DNA of 64,000 bases, from NCBI GenBank assembly GCA_008802785.1, contig VUYT01000009.1:434001-498000 (forward strand), in the 5' to 3' direction. Origin of the DNA: Symmetrospora coprosmae. Its lineage: Eukaryota; Basidiomycota; Cystobasidiomycetes; Symmetrosporaceae. A program made the translations under genes and the position numbers. The number at the start of each line of letters is the position of its first letter. Positions within the stretch are counted from its first letter, which is position 1. Positions 3,001 to 49,100 of this stretch are shown piece after piece. The notes beneath the pieces were generated by a model. It ran no database searches. It was not told the origin of the DNA and was given only the letters and a program-made list of their open reading frames with translations.

Positions 3001-6000
3001 TCGGTCTCATGCACCCGCTTATGTTTGACGTTACGCAGGTCGAGCCTGTTTGGGCCGACTTCAACGGAGGCATGAGCGCCATTGCCGACCTCCACATCCT
3101 CAACGCCAAGATCCGAGACGACATCAACAAGACCGCCAGCACGCGCCGCGCCATCGCCATGGACAACTCTGCCGATTTCAAGGTCACGTCCGGCAGCGAG
3201 GCCGAGGCGGTTCAGCAGAAGGTCAACATCGCTCCTCGAGCCAACTTCACCCTGCCGTTCCCCAAGCTGCCCGAGAACTTTGACTCGGACGCCGATCTCA
3301 CCAAGCTGCGTGGTCTCATTGACCTCGACAAGGTCATTGTCGTCACCGGATATGCCGAGGTCGGACCGTTTGGCTCGTCCAGGACGCGATGGGAGATGGA
3401 GGCGAAGGGGGAGTTCAGCATCGAGGGTCTCCTCGAGCTCGCCTTCACTCTCGGTCTCATCAAGCACTTCAATGGACGGCTCAAGTCTGGCCAGACGTAT
3501 GTCGGCTGGGTTGATGCCAAGTCCGAGGAGCCCGTTGACGACAAGGATGTCCGCGGCAAGTACGAGAAGCACATCCTGGCCCACACTGGTGTCCGACTCA
3601 TCGAGCCCGAGCTTTTCCGAGGCTACGACCCGAAGCGCAAGGGTTTCACCCAGGAAATCGAGATTCAGCACGACCTCGAGCCGATCGAGACCAACCCAGC
3701 CGACGCCGAGAAGTTCAGGCTCGAGCACGGCAACAAGGTCGACGTCTGGGCCGACGGCGACCGCTGCTTTGTTAAGTTCAAGAAGGGCGCCAAGCTCCTC
3801 GTTCCCAAGGCTATCCGATTCGACCGGCTCGTCGCTGGCCAGATTCCGACTGGATGGGACGCCCGTGTCTTTGGCATTCCCGACGACATTGTCTCGCAGA
3901 CCGACAGGACTGCCCTTTGGGCGCTTGTCTGTGTTGCCGAGGGTCTCATGGCTTCTGGTATCACCGACCCGTACGAGCTCTACAAGTACGTCCACCCGTC
4001 CGAGGTCGGAACGGCCATTGGATCCGGTATGGGCGGCATGGAGTCGCTGTCCAAGATGTTCAGGGACCGCCGAGAAGAGAAGGACATCCAGAAGGATATT
4101 CTCCAGGAGACGTTCATCAACACGGTCGCTGGATGGGTCAACCTGCTCCTCGTCTCGTCGAACGGACCCGTCAAGATCCCAGTCGGTGCCTGCGCCACTG
4201 CGCTGCAGTCCGTCGAGATTGCCTGCGATACCATCCTCAGTGGCAAGGCCAAGGTCATGTTCGCCGGCGGTTTCGATGACTTCTCTGAGGAGGGCTCGTA
4301 CGAGTTCGCCAACATGAAGGCGACCAGCAACACCGAGACCGAGTTTGCATCTGGCCGAGAGCCCAATGAGATGTCGAGGCCTACCACGTCGACCCGAGCT
4401 GGCTTCATGGAGTCGCAGGGATGTGGTGTCCAGGTGCTCATGTCGGCAAAGACTGCCCTCGAGATGGGTGCTACCATCTGTGCGTTCTCTCGCCCTGGTC
4501 CTGTATTGCCTACGCATGCTGACATCTTCCACTTGCTCCACAGACGGTATCGTCGGGTACACCAACACTGCCACGGACAAGGCTGGACGGTCCATTCCGG
4601 CGCCCGGTCGAGGTATCCTCAGCACTGCCAGGCAGCTCACGTCCAAGTACCCGTCAAAGAACATCGAGCTCTCGTACAGGAAGCGGCAGCTTGAGTTCCG
4701 CCGGCGCCAGATCTCCGAGTGGCTCGACAACGAAATCAGCCTGCTCAAGGATGAGTGCACCGATGGCGATCAGGAGCACTATGCCGACCGCCTCGACTGC
4801 ATCAAGAAGGAAGCAAAGAGGCAGGAGAGCGATGCCCTCGCTACCTTTGGCATGCTCGAGGGTGCCGACCCGAACATTGCACCGCTCCGAAAGGCGCTCG
4901 CAGTCTGGGGTCTTACGATTGATGACATCGGAGTCGCTTCGGTGAGTGCTATCCGGCACTCTGCCAGCACAGAACTCTGTTCACTGACGTCACTCTCGCT
5001 GTCAGTTCCACGGAACGTCCACCAAGGCCAACGACAAGAACGAGTCCAACGCCTTCAACACGCAGTTTGAGCACCTCGGCCGGACCAAGGGCAACGCGTG
5101 CCCGGTCATTGCGCAGAAGTGGCTCACGGGACATCCCAAGGGTGGTGCTGCAGCGTGGATGATGAACGGCATGATCCAGACGATCCAGGCCTCGCTCATC
5201 CCGGGCAACCGCAATGCCGACAACATCTCGCCCGAGATGCAGGCCTTCGAATACCTCGTCTACCCATCGCGGTCCATCCAGACGGACGGCATCAAGGCTG
5301 GTCTGCTCAAGTCGTTCGGCTTCGGACAGGTCGGAGGCGAGGCGCTCGTCATCCACCCGTCGCACCTCCTCGCTGCCCTCGATCCGGCACAGTACGCTTC
5401 GTACAAGGAGCACAACGCTGCGCGGTTCGACGCGTCGTACCGCAAGTACAACGACATGTTTGTGCAGAGGAACCTCATCATCCTCAAGGAGGCGCCGCCC
5501 TACACGCCCGAGCTCGAGCGCGATGTGCTCCTGAACCCGCTCGCGCGCGCCAGCAAGGACGCCAAGGGCTCGTACTCGTTCAGCCCGGACATGCCTGTGG
5601 CCGGCAGCAGCGTGCACGCGCTCGCTGCGGCAAAGATGGCCGCTACGGTGGAGGGCGTGCACGGTGTCGGCACGGACGTGGAGCTCATCTCGTCCATTCC
5701 CATGGACAACCAGACGTATCTCGAGCGGAACTTTACCAAGGGCGAGCTGGACTACGCCCACTCGGCGCCCGACCCGCAGGCTTCGCTTGCTGGACGATGG
5801 GCGGCAAAGGAGGCCGTGTTCAAGTCGCTCAAGGTCGCTGGACGAGGCGGAGCCGCGCCCATGAAGGAGATTGAGATCATCTCGAGCGAGAAGGGACCGT
5901 CAGTCAAGCTGCACGGCGAGGCGGAGAAGGCGGCGAATGAGGCCGGAATCAGCGGCTTTGAGCTCAGCTTGTCGCACGCCGACGGCGTTGCGCTTGCTGT

Positions 6001-37837: not shown

Positions 37838-38851
37838 CTAATCCTCATCGAGCTCCAGCTTGAATCGGTCCTGCAGGCTCTCCTTGCCCATCATCACGAG
37901 CTCCTTGCGCACCGCCTCTTCTGTAACACCCGGATTGTCCTCCCTGAAGAGGTCCATCGACGTCTTGCCGCCCTGGATCCCAGCCTCCTGGTAGTGGCTG
38001 GGCCCGCTCTCAACCTCCAGAAATCCGCGCCATGCAGAGAGAACGAGCCCATGCTTCTTGAGCGTCCCTCCCAGCGTAACGATAATGCGCGCGACTTTGT
38101 TGGCGGTGAGTCCCTCGGGAAAGGAGAATTCGAGCTCTTTGATTGGCAGGGTGGAGAGCTTCTCGAGGAGAGGGCCGAAGCCGTCGGAATCCTTGCCGTA
38201 GAATTCGACATAGGGCATGTACAGGCTCTCGAGTCGAGTGTAGCCCTCGAGCGTCGCCAGCAGCATCTCGCTCAGATACGAGGGACGCTCTCCGCCCAGA
38301 GCGTAGCACATGGACGAGAGCGGTGATCCGTACGTGAGCTTCTTGGGATTGGCGAGGCGGTAGAGAGGCATGTACTCCAAGGGATGATCTCGGGCGTCGC
38401 CAGTGTCGTAATCGATGCCAAAGGCAATACTGAGCGCATCGAGATTGCCAAGGTGTCGCTCGAGCAGCGCTTGGGTCCGATGAGACAGGTTGGACCCGCC
38501 AACGTCGTTGGAGCCCAGCTTCGAGCTGGTCGGCGGTCGGAGTCCGAAGAAGCGCACAGTTCCAGGAGCGACCTTGTTCAGGCCAGACTTGCTGCTCGCC
38601 CAGAATGCGAACTTGCCGTACTTGTCGAATTCGGCGTGCGCGTAGATGCACTCGTTGGCGAGGACGGACAGACGCTTCGAAACGACAGCGACGCTCTTCC
38701 AGGTCGTGACGTTGTCGACGTGGTGCAGGACGCGGCTCAGGAGTTCGTTGGGCAGATCCAGGAGCTGGAGGGGCGCCATCTTTGCTTTGCGAGCGGTCCT
38801 GTCGCAAGACGAGCGGAGAAGGCGTTCGGTCGCGGTCAGCGAGGCGTCCAT
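37838..38851 (-). CDS. F-box domain protein
   Basis: Single-exon gene of 337 residues (313 if started at the in-frame ATG at 38779). The N-terminal F-box reads LLDLPNELLSRVLHHVDNVT, then WKSVAVVSKRLSVLANE, expected to bind Skp1 in an SCF ubiquitin ligase. The rest has leucine-rich spacing (LLERHLGNLDALSIAFG, LEGYTRLESLYMPYVEF, LSTLPIKELEFSFPEGL), consistent with degenerate leucine-rich repeats as the substrate-binding part. Nothing indicates the substrate. It lies between NOM1 and TOP3 on the same strand. Confidence 0.8.
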   Translation of the reverse strand: MDASLTATERLLRSSCDRTARKAKMAPLQLLDLPNELLSRVLHHVDNVTTWKSVAVVSKRLSVLANECIYAHAEFDKYGKFAFWASSKSGLNKVAPGTVRFFGLRPPTSSKLGSNDVGGSNLSHRTQALLERHLGNLDALSIAFGIDYDTGDARDHPLEYMPLYRLANPKKLTYGSPLSSMCYALGGERPSYLSEMLLATLEGYTRLESLYMPYVEFYGKDSDGFGPLLEKLSTLPIKELEFSFPEGLTANKVARIIVTLGGTLKKHGLVLSAWRGFLEVESGPSHYQEAGIQGGKTSMDLFREDNPGVTEEAVRKELVMMGKESLQDRFKLELDED

Positions 38852-39194
38852 GCGCGAGCCGCCTTCATTTGCACGGTGAGCGATGCTCACGACTGCCGAC
38901 GAGTCTTTGCCATCGCGTTGCTTCCTGTCGCCCTCCAGCAGATGTGTTGGGGTTGCGGAGGCAAGAGGCGAGAGCGTCTGAGGATCCTGAGGGATCAGTG
39001 GCGAACAGCTTGCGACTGCACCGCCATGCGACTTCTGAGGACTAGACAATAACGGAATGACAGACACTCTGCTACACTGATACTGCCCGTCTCTTGCTAT
39101 GCTTGTGTACCTATGCTTGAGCACGCCGCTGAATGAAGAAGCTCGAATAAAAAACGACGATGAAACGGAACGCACTGGCACTCCTCCACCGTTC
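38852..39194. other. Intergenic, nothing recognised
   Basis: 343 bases between the TOP3 stop and the F-box start, both on the minus strand; presumed F-box promoter. Confidence 0.5.
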
Positions 39195-42100
39195 TCAATC
39201 ATAGTAACTCTCATACTCGTCCATCCCGAGCAGGTCGCCCGCTTTCTTCCTCCCTCCGGTACCGGATGCCTTGCTGCCACGAGCTCGTCCACCGCGTGTT
39301 TTGCCGCCTCTGCCTCGCGTCGAGCCGCCTGACGTCTTGCCCCGCTTGCTGGGTCGACTGTTGTACCCGCCGTCGCCATTGCCGTTCGGTGCATTGGTGC
39401 AGTCCCGGCTGTAGTGGCCTGTGACACTACGCAGTCAGCCTTTGGCGCACCTGGCAAGACTGCTCGTAGACCCACCTTCCTCGCCACACTTGAAGCAGGC
39501 ACCACTTGCTCCGCCGCCGCCGTTCTGACCCTTCTGTGGACACGCATTGCTCCAGTGGTCCGATGATCCGCAGGTGAAGCACTCGCCCTTGCCACTCGCG
39601 CCTGCGCCGGCACCGTAACCGTAACCAACCCCTTGGCCGCCATTGGAGCCGTTGCCGCCTGGATTCGGACAGTCTTTGCTCCAGTGCCCCTCCTCGCCGC
39701 ACTACGAGTAATGGAAGCAAAATCAGCATGTACTGAGGTAGAGATTGCGGGGGTGCCCACCTTGTAACATCCGCCACTGGCACCTCCGCCACTTTGCTGG
39801 CCGTTGTAGCCCTGATTGCTGTTGGCAGCTGCCGCGCCGTTACCGCCCGCATTTGGGCAATCCTTGCTCCAATGTCCTTCATCGCCGCACTGGAAGAGAT
39901 GGAAGAGGATTCAGCAATGGCGTGCACGGCCTCCAGGCGAACATGTACCTTGTAGCACGCGCCACTGGCACCTCCACCACTGCCACCCTGACCGCCGTAG
40001 CCTTGGTTGGCATTACCAGCTCGGCTGGGTCCAGCGCCGCTGTTGTTCTTGTTCGGACAGTTGCTGCTCCAGTGGCCTTCTCCGCCGCACTGATCGCAGA
40101 GTGGAGGGTCAGCGGAAAGTCGACATGAACAAGCCATGCCTGGACTCACCGAGAAGCACGACACATTGGCAGCGCCGCCTCCGCTCTGCGAAGTGGGAGC
40201 GTTGGATCTGCTGTTGCCGCCGTAGCCTCCGTTGTTGACTGGCACTGCATTCTGGTCTCCCCACTCGAAGCTGTCGGTGCAGGGTAGGCTTCAGCTCGTC
40301 TCTTACCGTCAGAGTCAAGACGAGCAACGCACAACTTGCACTGCGAGGCTTTGCTGATCTTGCTGCAGATCCAGAAGGTGCGCCCCTTGTTGTCTCCTTC
40401 CTTGCCCGATATCTTGCTGACTGCGACGAGGTCGCACCGGCACCGCGGTGCCTGTTCGACAAAGGCCCCTCCGGCGACGCTTCCTGCACTGCGCCTACTC
40501 GCCATCCCACTGCCACTGCCTCCGCCGCCGTTATTGTTCTCATTCAGGTCGGCCCATTCGAAATAGCCGCATCCCTCTCCTTGCGGTTTTGGGCATGCGT
40601 GGAATTGGCGGCCTTGGTTGTCGCCTTGCTTGACAACGGTGCGAAGGATGGTGCTTTCGCCGCACCCGCAAATCTTGTCGTCTGCGATATCATGGGACGC
40701 TTGTCAGCTGGAAGTTAGGTCGCCAGGCATTCTGCAACTCCGCTGGACGCACCTTCCTCGCCAGGCGCAGGCCTTTTCTGCCCCTGGAAGCGCGGTGCAG
40801 AGGCAGGACCTCCTCCTCCGTAACCGCCATTTCCTTGCTGCGCATTGCTGCCGCTGCCATTACCGTTACCATCTGCCCAGTCGAAGAAACCGCATCCTTC
40901 ACCCTGAGGCTTGGGACAGGCGGAGAACTGGCGGTCTTTGTTCGGGCCATCTTTCCGGACGGTGCGCTGCACAGCGGGCTCGCCGCACTTGCAGAGCTTG
41001 TCTTCTGCTGGCAAAAGCAGATAGAGGGTGTCAGCGAAGGTCGAACTGCTTGAGCGTGAGGACAGACTCACCTGTTCCGTTGCCATTGTCGCGCTCAAAG
41101 CGAGGAGCGGGTGCCGCTCTCGGCGGCCTAGGAGGAGGAGGTCTCCTTCCATTGTCTCCGCCCCCTGCATTCCCTCCGCCCCGACCGCCACCTCTTCCTC
41201 GAGCAGCAGGAGCAGCCCCACGACCGCGCCCTCCCTTGCCACCGCGGCCGGCTCCGCCTCCGTGGCCCCCGGGCCCTCCGCCGCCTCCGCCAAAGTCGTC
41301 GTTGTCATCGCCAGGAGGAGGTCCGGCTCCATCGTCATACTCGTCTTCCTCGTCGCCGGGGCCATTGACGACATTCTGAGGCGCGCCTCCACCTTGTCCT
41401 TCAATGTACTCGCGGACGGACTGCACGAGGGAGAAGTGCAAGTCAGTCATGACAAAAGCATGCGGGTAAGGCGAGTCCGCTCACCCCAACAAGCGTGCCG
41501 AACTGCGCCTTCGTTTTGAGATACAGCTCGCGGTACTCCTCGACGCACTCGTTGATGACGTCCGTCTTGCTCCTCTCCCCATCGCAGATAAGGACCATGC
41601 GCTGCTCCGTCTCTGCGCGCAGGAACGGCTTGGACAGGCTCTTCTCAAACCCGATGCGGTTGTACCCCTCGACGAGGCCGATGCCCAGCGTAGACGGGAC
41701 GAGGTAGTCCCTCCCACCCTGCCGCTGGCGCATGGCGTACGAGCGGTCGATGATTGTGCTGATGTGCTGCGCGATCGTCGCGTCCGTCCCGATCCCGTTC
41801 TTGTCCATGAGCGAGACGAGGTCCGCCTCGGTGAGCAGATTCGGGCGTGTCGTCTGCCCGTCGCGCATCTCGCACACGGTCGGCATGAAGCGCTCGCCAG
41901 CTTGGAAATTCGGAATGTGCATCCCCTCCCAGCGGTCGTAGGGGAAGACGTCGAGGTAGTTGCGCTGGTGGACGATCAGGCCTGTATGGGAAGGGCCACC
42001 GACGCAGTGTCAGCAGGTGTCAGGCAGGCGGAATGAGGAAGAGACTCACCGGATGCAGTGAATGCTTCTCCGGCAATCTCAATGTCGACCTCGGTCTTTG

Positions 42101-43665
42101 CTCCCGTTGCGTTCTTGGAGCACGCAGCAAGGTAGCGCCGCGTAATGTACTCGTATACGCGCTTCTCATCTCCTTGCAAGTTGCCATTGTGCTGAACGGG
42201 GTGGATGGGCGGATGGGCTTTGTCGTTCTTCTTGCCCATCTTTGGGCGCTCGAATCCGCCGTTCTGGAGAGCTGTGGCGAACGCACCCCACTGCGTGTCC
42301 GCCGTCTGCCTGGCAATGAGTTCCAGGTGGTCGAATGCCGGGTCAAATTGGTCTGTCTCTGTGCGCGGGTACGAGCAGAGACCCTTGTGGTACAGCGACT
42401 CGGCCGCGTCGAGGATCTTCTTCGGTGGGAGGCGGAGCAGGCGAGACCCGTGCTTCTGCAGCTCGACCGTCGTGAGCGGGTATGGTTTCCTGGGTGGGCG
42501 ACAAAGGCGTGAGTGCGGTCCTTTCCCCGTTTGAGCGGCGGCACCCACCACTTGGACGTCGGCCTGGTCACGACATTCTTGACCTCTGCTTCCGGCTGCA
42601 GCACGCACTGCTCGAACAGGACGAGGACGGCCGCGTGGTCAAAGAGGCGGTTCCGCTTCCAGCTGAAGTGGACATTGAAGGCGTCTCTCTCGAGCGCGAC
42701 GTAGATCTGCCAGAAGTCCTCTGGTACGAAGTTCTGCACTTTTTGGTACTGGTCCACGACAAAGCCGAGCGTCGGGAATTGGCAGGGTCCTGTCGCTCAA
42801 GGTGTCAGCGAGGGCTATAGAAGGAGGAAGGTAAGGACACGCACCGTAGCTGACGACGCCCTCGAGGACATCACGAAAGTGGTTCTGCAGCCCAAGTGTC
42901 TGGACACGCGTGAGGGCTGCGCCTATCCGGAGGTCGAGATGGGTGCGCGCTTCGACGGCTGCAGCCTGGCGCAGGTCGAGAGCATGTGTGTTTCGTGCTG
43001 CGTGGTGTATTTGACTGTTGTTACGATGGGGGATGGTTAGCAAGAGTAGAGGCGGCAGGCGCCGGAAAGACCCACGCTGCAATGATGGCAGAGAAGCGCG
43101 CCCGGGTGACCTTGATGCGCGGATTGGCCTTTTTGCACGCGTTGGCCACCTCTGAACCAATGTGCTCCCCTTCCCTGTCGCAATCTGTCCAGATCATGAC
43201 CTCCTGCGCCCGCGCTGCCTCGTTCCGGAGGTTTCTCTCGACTGTTTGCATGTCCTGAGGCATAGGTGGAAGGGGATCAGCCTGGTCCTGCTCGCACAAT
43301 GCAGGGACAGCCCACCTCCGACACGTAAGTCATGATGGGCGCGTCGAGGAGCTGGTACGGGTCGCACGAGTGCCACTTTCTGTACTCTGCTGGGAAGTCG
43401 TTGCTCGTGAGGTGGCCGAGGACGGACGTGACGGTGAAGTCGGTGAAGGGTCCGCCATTGGCGTTCATGCGGTAGCTAAAGTCGCAGTTCTTGATGTACT
43501 TGTTGGGCGAGTTGCGCTGGGGGTGTGCGTGTGCGTTAGTCGTCGATAGCAGCGGCCAGCAGATACACACGGCTGCGCGCTCACCGTCGTGAACTGGCCG
43601 CCGGACAGGATCTGGGCAATGCTGCGGGCCACTGATGGCTTCTCAGCCACGGCGAGCACCTTCAT
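39195..43665 (-). CDS. TOP3: DNA topoisomerase III with RGG, triple GRF and CCHC zinc-finger tail
   Basis: Type IA topoisomerase that acts with RecQ helicase and Rmi1 to dissolve joined DNA molecules. Fifteen exons, first 43665-43585, last 39418-39195, give 1199 residues with every phase consistent. The Toprim domain opens VLAVAEKPSVARSIAQIL and has WTDCDREGEHIGSEV (metal-binding DxD). The catalytic tyrosine is in CSYPRTETDQFD; core motifs GPCQFPTLGFVVDQY and NGIGTDATIAQHI follow. The tail, about 550 residues, holds a Gly/Arg RGG region; three GRF fingers starting LCKCGEPAVQ, ICGCGESTIL and PRCRCDLVAV (GRF3 ends FFEWGD across intron 40271-40332); and five CCHC knuckles, among them CYKCGDEGHWSKDC, CFTCGSSDHWSNAC and CFKCGEEGHYSRDC. 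Yeast Top3 lacks such a tail. Confidence 0.95.
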
Positions 43666-44017
43666 CCTGTCACATATCCTGCTGATGCGTGTATGGGATA
43701 GTCGTGGTTGTGGTCGGGAGGAGAGCCGTAAGCGCGCCTACTCTTGGAGGAGCTGCCGTCATCTACAGTAGCGCCACCGGGATGCGCAGACGCGTCACGT
43801 CCCTGCAGCTCCTTCCGTTTCAACCAACTGGATCGCGTACCGCAGCAAGCTGCATATTCTGAACGGAAGTACACGCACAGCAACACAGTGCAGCTCGCGG
43901 CAAGAAGCAGTCGGTCATCCGCAGTCGGTCGCAGGCTGCTCTCCACCCTCTCTCGGTCGTGCCCTGTCGGATGATACCCCTGGTTCAGCGACCCGGCAGA
44001 ACGGATGACACGTCGAA
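43666..44017. promoter_or_regulatory. Divergent promoter of TOP3 and the RING/GRF gene
   Basis: 352 bases between divergent starts. It contains ACGCGT at 43790-43795, the Mlu-box core bound by the MBF cell-cycle factor in yeasts. This is a single copy and its use here is inference. Confidence 0.5.
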
Positions 44018-45516
44018 ATGGCGGCTAGCTACATCCTGCGCATCGGGCCGCTGCCTGCTGCGTACAATCTCTCGCAGATACACGATGTGAGCTTCTCATC
44101 GTGGCGTTCCTTCGGCTCGGCCTCTCGCTAAGCATGTTTCGGCCCTTCCTTCGTGCCTCAGGAGCTGCCGGTAGATGACCAGTCTAGGCAATTGTGGACA
44201 ACGGAGGACCAGAGGAGTGCAGACGGGGGAAATGGTTCTGTTCGTCTTCACCGAGCTGAGGCACGTCGAGATGGCCGAGCTCGTATTGCAGTGAGGCTCT
44301 TCCTGATGGTCTCTGCACAGGGGATACCGACTAACGAGCTGTGACGATTCAGAAACTTCACTCTTCCACCGGGGGCTGCTATATGCCAGGGTCACGCACC
44401 TCTTCCGGCGGCCATGTCACTTGCCACACTCGGAGCTGGCGACTCCGTCGAGTCGGCACAGGCAACCAGTTCTGGAGGGCAGGGAAACAAACGAGCCCGA
44501 GAAGATGACCCGCACGAGGGTAGCGGCAGACACAGTTCACCTTCTCTCCACCCCTTCCACCGTGCATCCACACTGGAGCTCGCAAGCGAGCTGTCGTGTG
44601 CGATTTGCTCGGAGGTGATGGTTACGCCGGTCAATTTACACTGCGGACATGGCTTCTGCGAATATTGCATCCTGGACTGGTTCGTTCGAGGGGTAAGTGT
44701 ACATCGGGAGTAGCTGTTCTTCGGCACCATTCTGAAGCGAAATCTGCTATCTCCAGAATCGAGAGTGCCCGATTTGTCGGAAGATACACCATGGCGAGCC
44801 GGTTAGAAGCTACATCATCGATGCGGTGATTGACAAGCATGTAAGTCTACAGGAAGAGAATGAGATTCATGCCGTCTAGACTGACAGAGAGCTTCTCCTG
44901 TGTGTTCAGCTCGAGGCTGTCTATCACGCTACGGTGGAGCGAGAGGGAGAGCAGGAGGCCAAAGCGGCACGCGCAGCGCGCAAGACACTGATGGCAGCCA
45001 GGTCCGGCAATGTCGCCGCTTCCACGAGCGATGCAGTCGGCCCCGAGCCGGATGACGCTCCCGTCCTCGCTCCTGACGCTGGCGCCCCTGCCCCGCTCGC
45101 CAATCTATTACACCCATCCGTTGTCCCCGTCGCAGCTCCCACGGCCCAGCCTGCACTCGCTCTACCTGCAACTACACGAGAGCCTGCGCGCGCTGCTGCT
45201 CCTGCCCGCAGAGCTCCGCGTTGTCGATGCGATGTTCCTGCTATAAGCAGGACTGTCATTAAAGACGGAGCCAATAAGGGCCGCCCGTTCTGGGTCTGCG
45301 GCAAGAGGAGGTGGACAGGATGCGGGTTGTAGGTCAAGTGGTTGCTCTGGTAGGCTCATCGCCCTTATCTGAAGTTACTGAACTCATGCTTGTCTCATAT
45401 ACAGTTTCGAATGGGGAGATGGCATTGCTGCGCGATTCACTACGTATACAGCCGGAAGCTCAGGAAGTTCTGGAGTTGCCACAAGGAGAGATCAGCGCAA
45501 TGTGGATTGTGAGTGA
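44018..45516 (+). CDS. RING finger protein with C-terminal GRF zinc finger
   Basis: Predicted ubiquitin E3 ligase with a nucleic-acid-binding finger. A C3HC4 RING reads CAICSEVMVTPVNLHCGHGF, then CEYCILDWFVRG and ECPICRK. A short charged helix and an Ala/Pro-rich linker follow. The C-terminal GRF finger is CRCDVPAISRTVIKDGANKG, then RPFWVCGKRRWTGCGFFEWG. Firm exons: 44175-44290, 44353-44692, 44757-44840, 44910-45328, 45405-45516 (356 residues from the ATG at 44175). An upstream exon 44018-44086 (MAASYILRIGPLPAAYNLSQ) joins in frame via an 88-base intron and would give 379; the start is therefore uncertain. The region before the RING is unrecognised. It is divergent from TOP3, whose third GRF resembles this one. 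Confidence 0.83.
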
Positions 45517-46140
45517 TGTCATCGTACCTCGAGCCGTCTGCTTTGCTGAGATGGCCGCATCCGATAACGCCATGGGTACAGTTTCCGAATGAGATTGAGC
45601 TAGGGCTGTGCGGCAAGACGCAGTAAGACAGGCGATAGGGGCAAGGCACGGCGGGTGAGGAGGTCGGGGAGCAGAGCCAATCGGAGCAAGATGAGAGGGC
45701 AGATTTCCATGCCAGGGTCTGGCATTGAGCCCAGGGCGCGGGAAGGGCGGGGCTGTCTCCATGGGGAGTAATAGCCGTAGGCACAAAACAAGACGCTCTT
45801 TTTCCATCAGACGGAAAAAGAGGGAGGAGATTTTACACTGGTGACGAGGCCGCTGCTGCGCATGACATCAAAGGGGAACAAGGGTACAGACATCAGGAAG
45901 TTGTGTTTCGATTTTCAGACAGACGTATTTGCGGCTGAGCGAGAATGGCAGATTGACGCAGCAAGCTGCGCTATTACGCTGCACTTGCCGTCAATAGTTG
46001 CGCGACGACGAGAGATAGTCAATTGACGTTGGCGTGACCTTGCCTTGGATTCTCAACGACCTATCACCGACACTAATACAGACAACAGGCACATACTGAC
46101 GACAAAGACTGATCATTAACATGCGAGGTCGTCACTTTAC
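45517..46140. other. Convergent intergenic region
   Basis: 624 bases between the stops of the RING/GRF gene (+) and the GAS2 gene (-). It holds a perfect 10-base stem hairpin at 45796-45822 and one CGCAGC-AA-GCTGCG dyad at 45957-45970 like those clustered at 51473-51949. No gene was recognised. Confidence 0.6.
45796..45822. other. Inverted repeat, possible hairpin
   Basis: CTCTTTTTCC (45796-45805) and GGAAAAAGAG (45813-45822) pair perfectly around a 7-base loop. It lies about 280 bases past the RING/GRF stop and could mark an RNA 3'-end structure, but no function is shown. Confidence 0.5.
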
Positions 46141-49100
46141 TCATAATCTCCAAGGTATAGAAGCGGACTTGCTGCGTTGCTGCTGAATCGGGATGTGCGT
46201 GTTTGCGACTGGCGGGGAGCGCGTGCTGGTCTTGACGAGCAGGGCGGTGAGGTCGATAGGAGGGACTGAAGGCGCGCCGTAAGCACCGCTGATCCGTCGA
46301 GAAGGCATGTGTCGCTTCGAATCGTGTGAGACGGCGCGAGGAGTGCCGCTCCCCTTAACGCCAGAGCCGGCGCATGCGACCGAGCCCGAGAGCACCGGAT
46401 TTCCGCTGTCCGTGCTGCGAGCGAGACTGGCTCTGAATGCCGCAGCATTCTGCCATGGCCGCGCATCATTGCTGCTCTTGCCGAGACTGTCCCTGGCGTC
46501 TTGAGGCGAGACGTGACCGCGAGCTGACTCCTGCAGAGGCGATACCTGCTGAGCAGGCGCAAAGACGGAGTCAAAATGAGTCAGCAGGAAGCTGCTCAAC
46601 TCCTGCCATCCTCCTGCGAATTGGAAAGCGTGTCAGTGCATCTCTACGTTTCCTAATCTGCTTCGCACTCACCTCCGACCCTCAGCATGACCGTCTTCGA
46701 GCGCAGAATGCGAGCATAGTAGAGGCGAGGCGGATCGCCAATGAAGTACCGCCCTACTTCATCATGGTGCGTCTCGGCGGGTGTGATGGTCACGGGCACC
46801 TGGGACACGAGATACAGTCAATCAGCTGGGGCGCCTCTAGAAAGTCATACGACATGCAGCATCTCACATTCATGCCATTGACGATCCTAGCGACAGCGAC
46901 ATCGAGCTTGCGCTTCGAGTTGGCCCGGTAGTGATTCGGCCGCTGCGCAAGGTCGAGATGCTTCTTGCTGCTGCGGCGATTTGAGCTCCGGCGCGTAGCA
47001 CTCGGCGGACTCGACTGTTCCTCATTCACAGAAGTCGCTTCCGACTTCGCTCGTCCGGCCAGAGATTGCTGCAACAATTGCGTGGGCGTTGAGATTGTCG
47101 GAGTAGGCGCGTCCCGTGACGACTTCCGAGACGTCGAGCGCGGAGCGAGAGAGTTGGATGCGCTTCGTCGCGGCGTCGGGATTGCAGGTGAGGATGGGAT
47201 GGGCAGGCGGGAGGCGAGGGAGGCGGCCGACGACGTGGACTTCGTTCTTGCGCGAGGAGAAGCTGTCACAGGGATGCGCGAGAGTGAAGAGCTGCTCGGG
47301 AGACGCGGACTCGCGAAGCTCGGCGGGCCAGCTTGCGATCCTGACGAGATATTCGAGACGGTGGACGAGCGCGATACGCTGCGAAGGCTCTGACGTTTGC
47401 GGGCGGCATTGTCGGCTGACTGGCCAGAAACTGTGCGACGCGAGTAAGTTGACAACTCGCTCGCGATGCTGCTGCTGCGCGAAATCGATCGTTGCGAGTC
47501 CGTAGGACTGTGCGGCGCGTCTTCGCGAAGCGCCAAGCTGCGCAGCTCTCGCCAGACTCCCTGAAGCTGCTGCAGGCGCTGCAAGACCCGTGGGTCGTCC
47601 TCCACAGGCCGCGCTGCCTCCTTCGTCCGCTCGACAGCACACTCTGCCGCCAGGAGAGCATCCTCCCGGACGTCGACGCCTTCCTCATTCTCCTTGTCAT
47701 CATCGACCGCGTCGAGCAGCTTGCTGATAGCAGCATCACTTTCGCTCGCCAGCGAAGCGAACTTGGCGAGCTGCGAGACTCTTCCGACGTCCACCGCCTT
47801 CTCCTCGAGTAGCTGACGAGTGGCTGCATACGCTGCCTGCTCCTCCTCGCTGCCATCACACGCGAGATCTTCGAGATGAGCATGCGCGAGCGACACCTGC
47901 CTCTGAGCTGCCTCCGCTTCTTGAGTTGTCGGCAGCCGCTGCCGCGACAGACTTGTGGGCAGCGGACGCAAGAGGCTGTCGAGGTCCAGCTCCGCGATGG
48001 CATCCCTCAAGTCGGAGACTGCAGAAACGCTGGCGAGTCCGGGCGAGCTGAGCGATAAAGGGGGAGGCACGACCGGTTCCGCAGAGGCCGTGACCGAGCG
48101 CAGCAGGGCGTCTTCGGTTGCGTAAACCTCAGGGCCAAATACGTCTTCGGACGTCGCTGTCTTTTGCCGGAGGCGTGTGCTGAGCTCCTGAATGTCCTCA
48201 TCCGATGGTGAGAAGACAATTGATGGATTTGAGGAGGACACAGTGATTCCTGCGGTGCTTTGCGTAGGCGGCCCTTCCTCCGCTCCAGTCTCCGACGGCT
48301 CCCTTTCCGCCTCGCTCTCCGTCGCTTGACGCCTGCGCTTGTCCTTCGCCTCTTCCTCATCTTCCTCTGCCCGCCTATTCGCCTCCGCTTCCCTCTCGAC
48401 GCGTTCTTCTTCCTCTTCCTCATACCTTGCCAGCTCTTCTGCTGCTGCGCGTGCTGCCCTTTCCTCTTCTTCCGCTTGCCTTTGGCTGTCTGCTTGGAAG
48501 GTCATCGTCTCCAGCTCCTCCTCCGTCCGCTTCTGCGCTTCCCGGATGCCATGCACCAGCTCATCAACAGCAGCGACTGCCACCTCACGTAGCGATTCGA
48601 GCGTGCGCTGAGCTTTCTTGGGAAGCCGCCCACTTCGAGGCACGCTGTCGAGCTCTGCTACTCGTGCACGCATTTCCGAGCTGGCGGTCGAAAGGCTCGA
48701 TAGTCGAGCTTGCCGAGTTCGCAGGTCTGCGTCAGACGCATGCGCTGACGAGACAATGGCGGCTAGCTGCTCGTGCGAGGTCGCAACCTCTCCCTGCAAG
48801 CGAACGAGTCCTTCGCGAACCTCATTGGCGCCGCGAAGCTCGACAGTCGCGGCTTTGCGCTCGGCCAGAAGGGCGGACACGCGCGTCGCGAGCGTGTTGA
48901 CGTGCGAACGCACGCTATCGTCTAAAGTGGCGAGCTCCTTTGCGAGGGATGGTGGCAGCACGTCGAGGGTGGTTTCTGACGGGCAGGCGAGGAGCGCTCT
49001 CGTGCTCAAGCCGGTACTGAAGCTGTTGCAGTCCGTTTCCAGCTCGGTCTGAGGTGCAAGGATGCTCTCGACTGATGCAAGGTGTAGGTCTGCATCCGAG

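Follow-up and report, generated by a model that had tools for sequence, protein, structure and literature searches.

A RING-GRF gene beside TOP3 in Symmetrospora coprosmae and the intron that its finger shares with a TOP3 finger

A 64,000-nt stretch of the Symmetrospora coprosmae genome (contig VUYT01000009.1, positions 434,001 to 498,000; hereafter the window) carries, back to back with the type IA topoisomerase gene TOP3, a gene predicted to encode both a RING finger and a C-terminal GRF finger, which we call RING-GRF. Its GRF finger is interrupted by an intron at the same codon and in the same phase as GRF3, the third of three GRF fingers in TOP3. In our best explanation RING-GRF would be a chimera of two sources: the RING half would come from an RNF8-like RING gene family with another member on contig C11, the GRF finger would share its origin with TOP3 GRF3 because a piece of genomic DNA with its intron was copied long ago between the genes that now stand back to back, and the product would be a RING-type ubiquitin ligase (E3) directed to single-stranded DNA (ssDNA). 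We assign this explanation as a whole a probability of roughly 0.55. Gene models and splicing of both genes were derived from sequence only, and genome-wide results refer to a survey of 20 Mb in 77 contigs.

The shared intron site and the RING-GRF gene

The original prediction held that two divergent genes 352 bases apart carry GRF fingers cut by the same phase-2 intron, which the other two TOP3 fingers lack, and each of these points stands. The start codons lie at 43665 (minus strand, TOP3) and 44018 (plus strand, RING-GRF); the two introns fall in the identical codon, with positions and phase exact by sequence; and GRF1 and GRF2 each lie within a single exon (Table 1). The splice junctions read ...TGC AAG TT/GTGCGT...GACAG/C TTC GAG TGG GGA GAC in GRF3 (40332-40271) and ...TGC GGG TT/GTAGGT...ATACAG/T TTC GAA TGG GGA GAT in RING-GRF (45329-45404). 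When read through unspliced, the RING-GRF finger continues as ...GCGL and then meets an immediate stop. Given the intron densities of both genes and assuming uniform intron placement, the probability of an exact coincidence by chance is ∼0.0024 for one 138-nt domain and 0.007 for the three TOP3 fingers. Among the six GRF fingers found in the genome, the exact site is common to GRF3 and the RING-GRF finger alone.

Both domains of RING-GRF are well recognised. The spliced protein scores 45 bits with the Pfam GRF model (cut-off 25.9); its four GRF cysteines are intact, as are the GRxF motif and the aromatic residues at the end. The Cys, Arg, Phe, and Trp columns of the zinc ligands, GRxF and FFxW are invariant across the four fingers of the window, with departures at the GR pair (DR in GRF1) and at the first Phe (Tyr in GRF2). 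Five Pfam RING models score above cut-off, and all eight C3HC4 ligands are readable.

The gene model comprises exons 44018-44086, 44175-44290, 44353-44692, 44757-44840, 44910-45328, and 45405-45516, the last four of which are secure in both frame and splice sites. Exons 1-2, in which a Pfam scan recognised no domain, are the best frame-consistent choice (other joins tried did not read through), and the gene may alternatively begin in the second exon. A literature search of open-licence papers gave no protein with RING and GRF together among the titles and abstract starts listed, and we rate RING-GRF as a new combination of known domains. No relative of this protein, or of a 263-residue piece of TOP3, was found in the viral contigs scanned.

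Table 1. Coordinates of TOP3, RING-GRF and their features in the window
Feature	Position	Strand	Description
TOP3 (type IA topoisomerase)	39195..43665	-	15 exons, 14 GT-AG introns, 1199 aa; Pfam
GRF1 of TOP3	40868..40996	-	no intron; 66.7 bits; in exon 41004-40753
GRF2 of TOP3	40545..40673	-	no intron; 65.2 bits; in exon 40681-40333
GRF3 of TOP3	40255..40454	-	cut by intron 40271-40332
TOP3 GRF3 intron	40271..40332	-	62 nt, phase 2, in first Phe codon of FFEWGD
Intergenic region	43666..44017		352 bases between divergent start codons
RING-GRF gene	44018..45516	+	model: 6 exons, 379 aa; exons 1-2 uncertain
RING finger (C3HC4) and next stretch	44567..44840	+	phase-0 intron 44693-44756 inside; next phase-0 intron 44841-44909
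GRF finger of the RING protein	45210..45420	+	C-terminal; cut by intron 45329-45404
RING-GRF finger intron	45329..45404	+	76 nt, phase 2, same codon as in TOP3 GRF3

Origin of the two halves

RING-GRF looks like a chimera because intron signatures are recognisable on both of its halves. On the RING side, a gene on contig C11 matches at 51 of 91 residues (56%), and both introns in this stretch occupy the same codons, in phase 0, in RING-GRF and its C11 paralogue. The reading frame of the paralogue ends without a GRF finger, which it could instead have lost. The RING and the stretch that follows also align with RNF8 (E 9e-14 over ∼73 residues among solved structures; 3e-13 in another search), and a chain of a RING2-BMI1 chimera scores better still (7e-15). 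RNF8 has an FHA domain. By contrast, none was found in RING-GRF (Pfam, E up to 1, with exons 1-2 uncertain), which bears a GRF finger instead; in this it differs from RNF8, whose FHA is N-terminal, and the six FHA places of the genome lie on other contigs. As a side observation, an open frame just upstream of the paralogue (L011 5730-3420, contig C11, minus strand) holds EIIDLSSDDDDDL, which resembles a SUMO-interacting motif; if the two form one gene, it possibly encodes a SUMO-targeted ligase.

On the GRF side, a common origin of GRF3 and the RING-GRF finger is favoured by the exact intron position and phase, by four residues unique to the pair, by best mutual identity, by adjacency and by the best trees, so that the two fingers probably descend from one. 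Compared as spliced sequences they are identical at 26 of 46 residues, the best pairing for both. The RING-GRF finger matches GRF1 at 24/46 and GRF2 at 21/46, the NEIL3 first fingers at 21/44 and 23/44, the genome's own APE2 at 17/44, Xenopus APE2 at 17/39, and a Methylobacterium finger at 20/44. After RING-GRF, GRF3 is most similar to a phage finger and to the first fingers of NEIL3 (19/44 in each case) and to a finger encoded on C11 (13/30), with GRF1 lower (17/46); being closer to these than to its own GRF1, GRF3 is a derived finger that pairs clearly with the one of RING-GRF. The APE2 and NEIL3 fingers belong to the same family, as a profile of the four window fingers matches NEIL3 chains (1e-31, 8e-29) and APE2 (7e-8). 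The RING-GRF finger has four Cys and a CxC spacing like TOP3, in contrast to the genome's own APE2 finger, where a His and a long insert occur.

Four residues (A, R, D, S) are confined to GRF3 and RING-GRF among 15 aligned rows, and of the columns that divide the window's four fingers into two pairs, four separate GRF1 and GRF2 from GRF3 and RING-GRF, as against one and none for the other splits. Both best trees join RING-GRF with GRF3, with bootstrap and Shimodaira-Hasegawa-like approximate likelihood ratio test (SH-aLRT) values of 73/36 in the first (13 fingers, without the genome's APE2 and C11 fingers) and 78/98 in the second (13 of 15 fingers, without one finger from locus L006 and the Methylobacterium finger). 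Approximately unbiased (AU) tests were applied at the 0.05 level to eight placings of RING-GRF away from GRF3, representing seven distinct groupings, and rejected one, namely RING-GRF with all APE2 and NEIL3 rows of the first tree (p 0.032). The original expectation that the finger would sit with GRF3 rather than nearer to APE2 or NEIL3 thus agrees with the trees obtained, although of the alternative placings the one just named is the only one excluded.

Several observations weigh against a common origin of this kind. Support in the trees is low, over ∼45 columns, and the AU tests did not reject the groupings of RING-GRF with GRF1 plus GRF2 (p 0.137 in the first tree, 0.183 in the second), GRF1 by itself (p 0.082), the first fingers of NEIL3 (p 0.071), APE2 of Xenopus (p 0.062), APE2 of this genome (p 0.231), or the two APE2 fingers jointly (p 0.091). 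The first best tree splits the four window fingers, and holding them all together gives p 0.212. The likeness to GRF3 is not exclusive, as the counts for GRF1 and one NEIL3 finger given above attest, and NKGRxFWxC occurs in APE2 too. At the DNA level the 62- and 76-nt introns are unalike (122 of 1000 shuffles reach their score), 12 of the 24 residues shared by GRF3 and RING-GRF use the same codon, and a blastn comparison of 39000-43700 with 43700-47500 returned two 18-19 nt matches, one of which is the finger end. A recent copy is rejected on these results, and because the introns are unalike, half of the shared codons differ and no DNA trace extends beyond the finger, the event would be old.

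The position of an intron in the APE2 gene on contig C8 is a further point against a local copy and bears most directly on another account, in which the intron is old in the GRF domains of this lineage: it would have been kept in GRF3 and RING-GRF, lost from GRF1 and GRF2 and slid by two codons in APE2, and TOP3 and RING-GRF would be neighbours for unrelated reasons, with no local copy. The second of two introns in the APE2 finger is in phase 2 and splits the Lys codon of YFKW, 6 nt (two codons) downstream of the site shared by the other two. It is therefore conceivable that an intron at the domain end is ancestral or arose repeatedly, the GRF domain end may be intron-prone, and the far divergence of the fingers also fits this account. 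The APE2 site is not identical, however, and GRF1, GRF2 and the GRF gene on C11 have no intron there. The residues unique to GRF3 and RING-GRF also speak against it, and two of the four GRF genes found would be adjacent by chance with a probability of ∼0.002 (assuming ∼6,500 genes). We consider it a possible account that falls well short of the copy. Two independent gains at the same codon of two related fingers are very improbable: introns are dense in both genes (14 in TOP3, 5 in the RING-GRF model) and the two in question differ in length and sequence, as separate gains would, but codon and phase coincide exactly, at ∼0.002-0.007 by chance.

If the finger was indeed copied, the transfer would be of genomic DNA, because the intron came along and neither edge of the domain coincides with an exon boundary: the join in RING-GRF falls within exon 44910-45328, and the GRF edges are inside exons in TOP3 too. 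The domain is not bounded by introns of like phase, as in exon shuffling; its sole intron is internal. The original wording of an exon copied locally accordingly agrees with the favoured common origin but is inaccurate as to a single exon, since the segment consists of an intron with two half-exons. The intron in both copies rules out a retro-copy of cDNA. The idea that the 3' end of TOP3 was duplicated in inverted orientation was also rejected: no match to the TOP3 zinc knuckles was found downstream of RING-GRF in the window (tblastn, E ≤ 1), and the 14 inverted pairs found, of 18-31 nt at 71-83%, speak against it.

The copy may have run from TOP3 to RING-GRF or the reverse. A copy from RING-GRF that gave TOP3 its third finger is a variant compatible with our best explanation; we hold it tentatively, and somewhat more readily than an old intron. 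RING-GRF occupies the basal position in the pair, its end branch being 0 as against 0.98-1.04 for GRF3 in both trees, and the Basidiomycota in Table 3 of a study of fungal TOP3 have 1, 1, 1, 2, and 2 fingers (two in Ustilago maydis), none of them three (PMC9369019). A fast-evolving GRF3 after copying fits the branch lengths equally, however, and the RING paralogue lacks a GRF. GRF fingers are moreover typical of non-ascomycete fungal TOP3, and Rozella TOP3 has three, according to the available text of the same study (PMC9369019).

Should the shared origin hold, the locus would let one read how a DNA-binding finger passed from one gene to its neighbour along with the intron inside it, a move that yielded a ubiquitin ligase bearing TOP3's own finger.

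Predicted function and the TOP3 link

RING fingers of this type recruit a ubiquitin-conjugating enzyme (E2). The RING finger of RING-GRF would do the same, the GRF finger would carry the protein to single-stranded or branched DNA, and a repair or replication protein would be ubiquitylated there. In Xenopus APE2 the GRF finger is an ssDNA binder, as stated in the accessible part of one study (PMC8593216), and another, in its available text, takes the GRF fingers of TOP3 as potential ssDNA binders (PMC10969213). Judged by its domains, the RING-GRF product is most likely a RING E3 addressed to ssDNA by its GRF finger.

The candidate substrates include TOP3 itself when trapped on ssDNA, although it is an unlikely one. 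Equally unlikely, if compatible with our best explanation, is that RING-GRF serves specifically as the ligase of TOP3 or of trapped TOP3-DNA complexes; the Top3-ubiquitin module of the original prediction thus stays a hypothesis. The common finger and the divergent gene pair would suit such a role, but the GRF finger is also present in APE2 here, and compact genomes often have divergent neighbours. Work on human TOP3A points both ways in its available text: TOP3A cleavage complexes become ubiquitylated by a ligase other than TRIM41, whose identification the authors call for, yet proteasome inhibition left complex levels unchanged and no SUMOylation was seen (PMC10079683). The same text names SPRTN as the protease for human TOP3A-DNA complexes (PMC10079683), and MIB1 is described as acting on TOP3B (PMC10657456, available part).

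A fuller version, in which RING-GRF with its common-origin finger and a shared divergent promoter would act as a ligase for ssDNA-trapped TOP3 and mark the covalent complex for removal, is a shade more doubtful still. If true, it would supply the first instance of the ligase still to be determined for human TOP3A complexes, and since that ligase is still sought, the fungal RING-GRF beside TOP3 is a concrete candidate that can be deleted. The human findings make the TOP3 link worth testing; they are no evidence for it.

TOP3 and other GRF loci

TOP3 is the sole gene with PF01131 (type IA topoisomerase) found in the genome. A Pfam scan of the spliced protein identified Toprim, Topoisom_bac, three GRF and five CCHC stretches, with a GRF score of 150.2 bits over the three stretches (cut-off 25.9). 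Fungal TOP3 outside Ascomycota has a catalytic core, GRF fingers and then CCHC knuckles, as set out in the available text of PMC9369019, and the window TOP3, with Toprim and a type IA core and its zf-GRF before its zf-CCHC, has the same domain order and belongs with these proteins. Since this architecture is already published (PMC9369019), TOP3 itself is ordinary apart from its finger count, which exceeds the 1-2 GRF and 1-3 CCHC of the Basidiomycota (n = 5) in Table 3 of that study. The gene downstream of TOP3 (window 37838-38860, minus strand) starts with LLDLPNELLSRVLHHV, which we take to be F-box-like; it may be another ubiquitin-pathway gene adjoining TOP3.

The four window fingers are not the only GRF fingers of the genome, which also has the APE2 finger and a further gene on C11; the resulting census of four genes and six fingers is a lower bound. 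Six-frame searches miss the APE2 finger because two introns split it. The gene at C11:150829 matches below cut-off and was judged a GRF gene by eye (GRFFYKC...CRKFIWED, in a 444-residue open frame), and its protein has a long low-complexity tail (L027 333-1664, contig C11:150 kb, minus strand). A candidate at C14:127675 was dropped as the wrong frame of another open stretch.

Beside the APE2 finger at C8:235718-235744 (minus strand), a partial copy lies 3.3 kb away at C8:232432-232458 (minus strand), with 204 nt at 76% around the finger and 235 nt at 83% beside it; it is without a readable finger end and looks like a decayed fragment. Searched with the GRF profile, viral contigs yielded 2 loci among 46 stretches, none seen to be fungal, and the collection of genome contigs yielded 1 among 51 stretches, from Methylobacterium and likewise not fungal. 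A 146-residue protein of one viral contig (L005 5958-6398) has a good GRF finger, whose best segment is 54% identical to TOP3 GRF1, and the Methylobacterium hispanicum record (L012, about 3950-4250) has apparent tandem GRF fingers.

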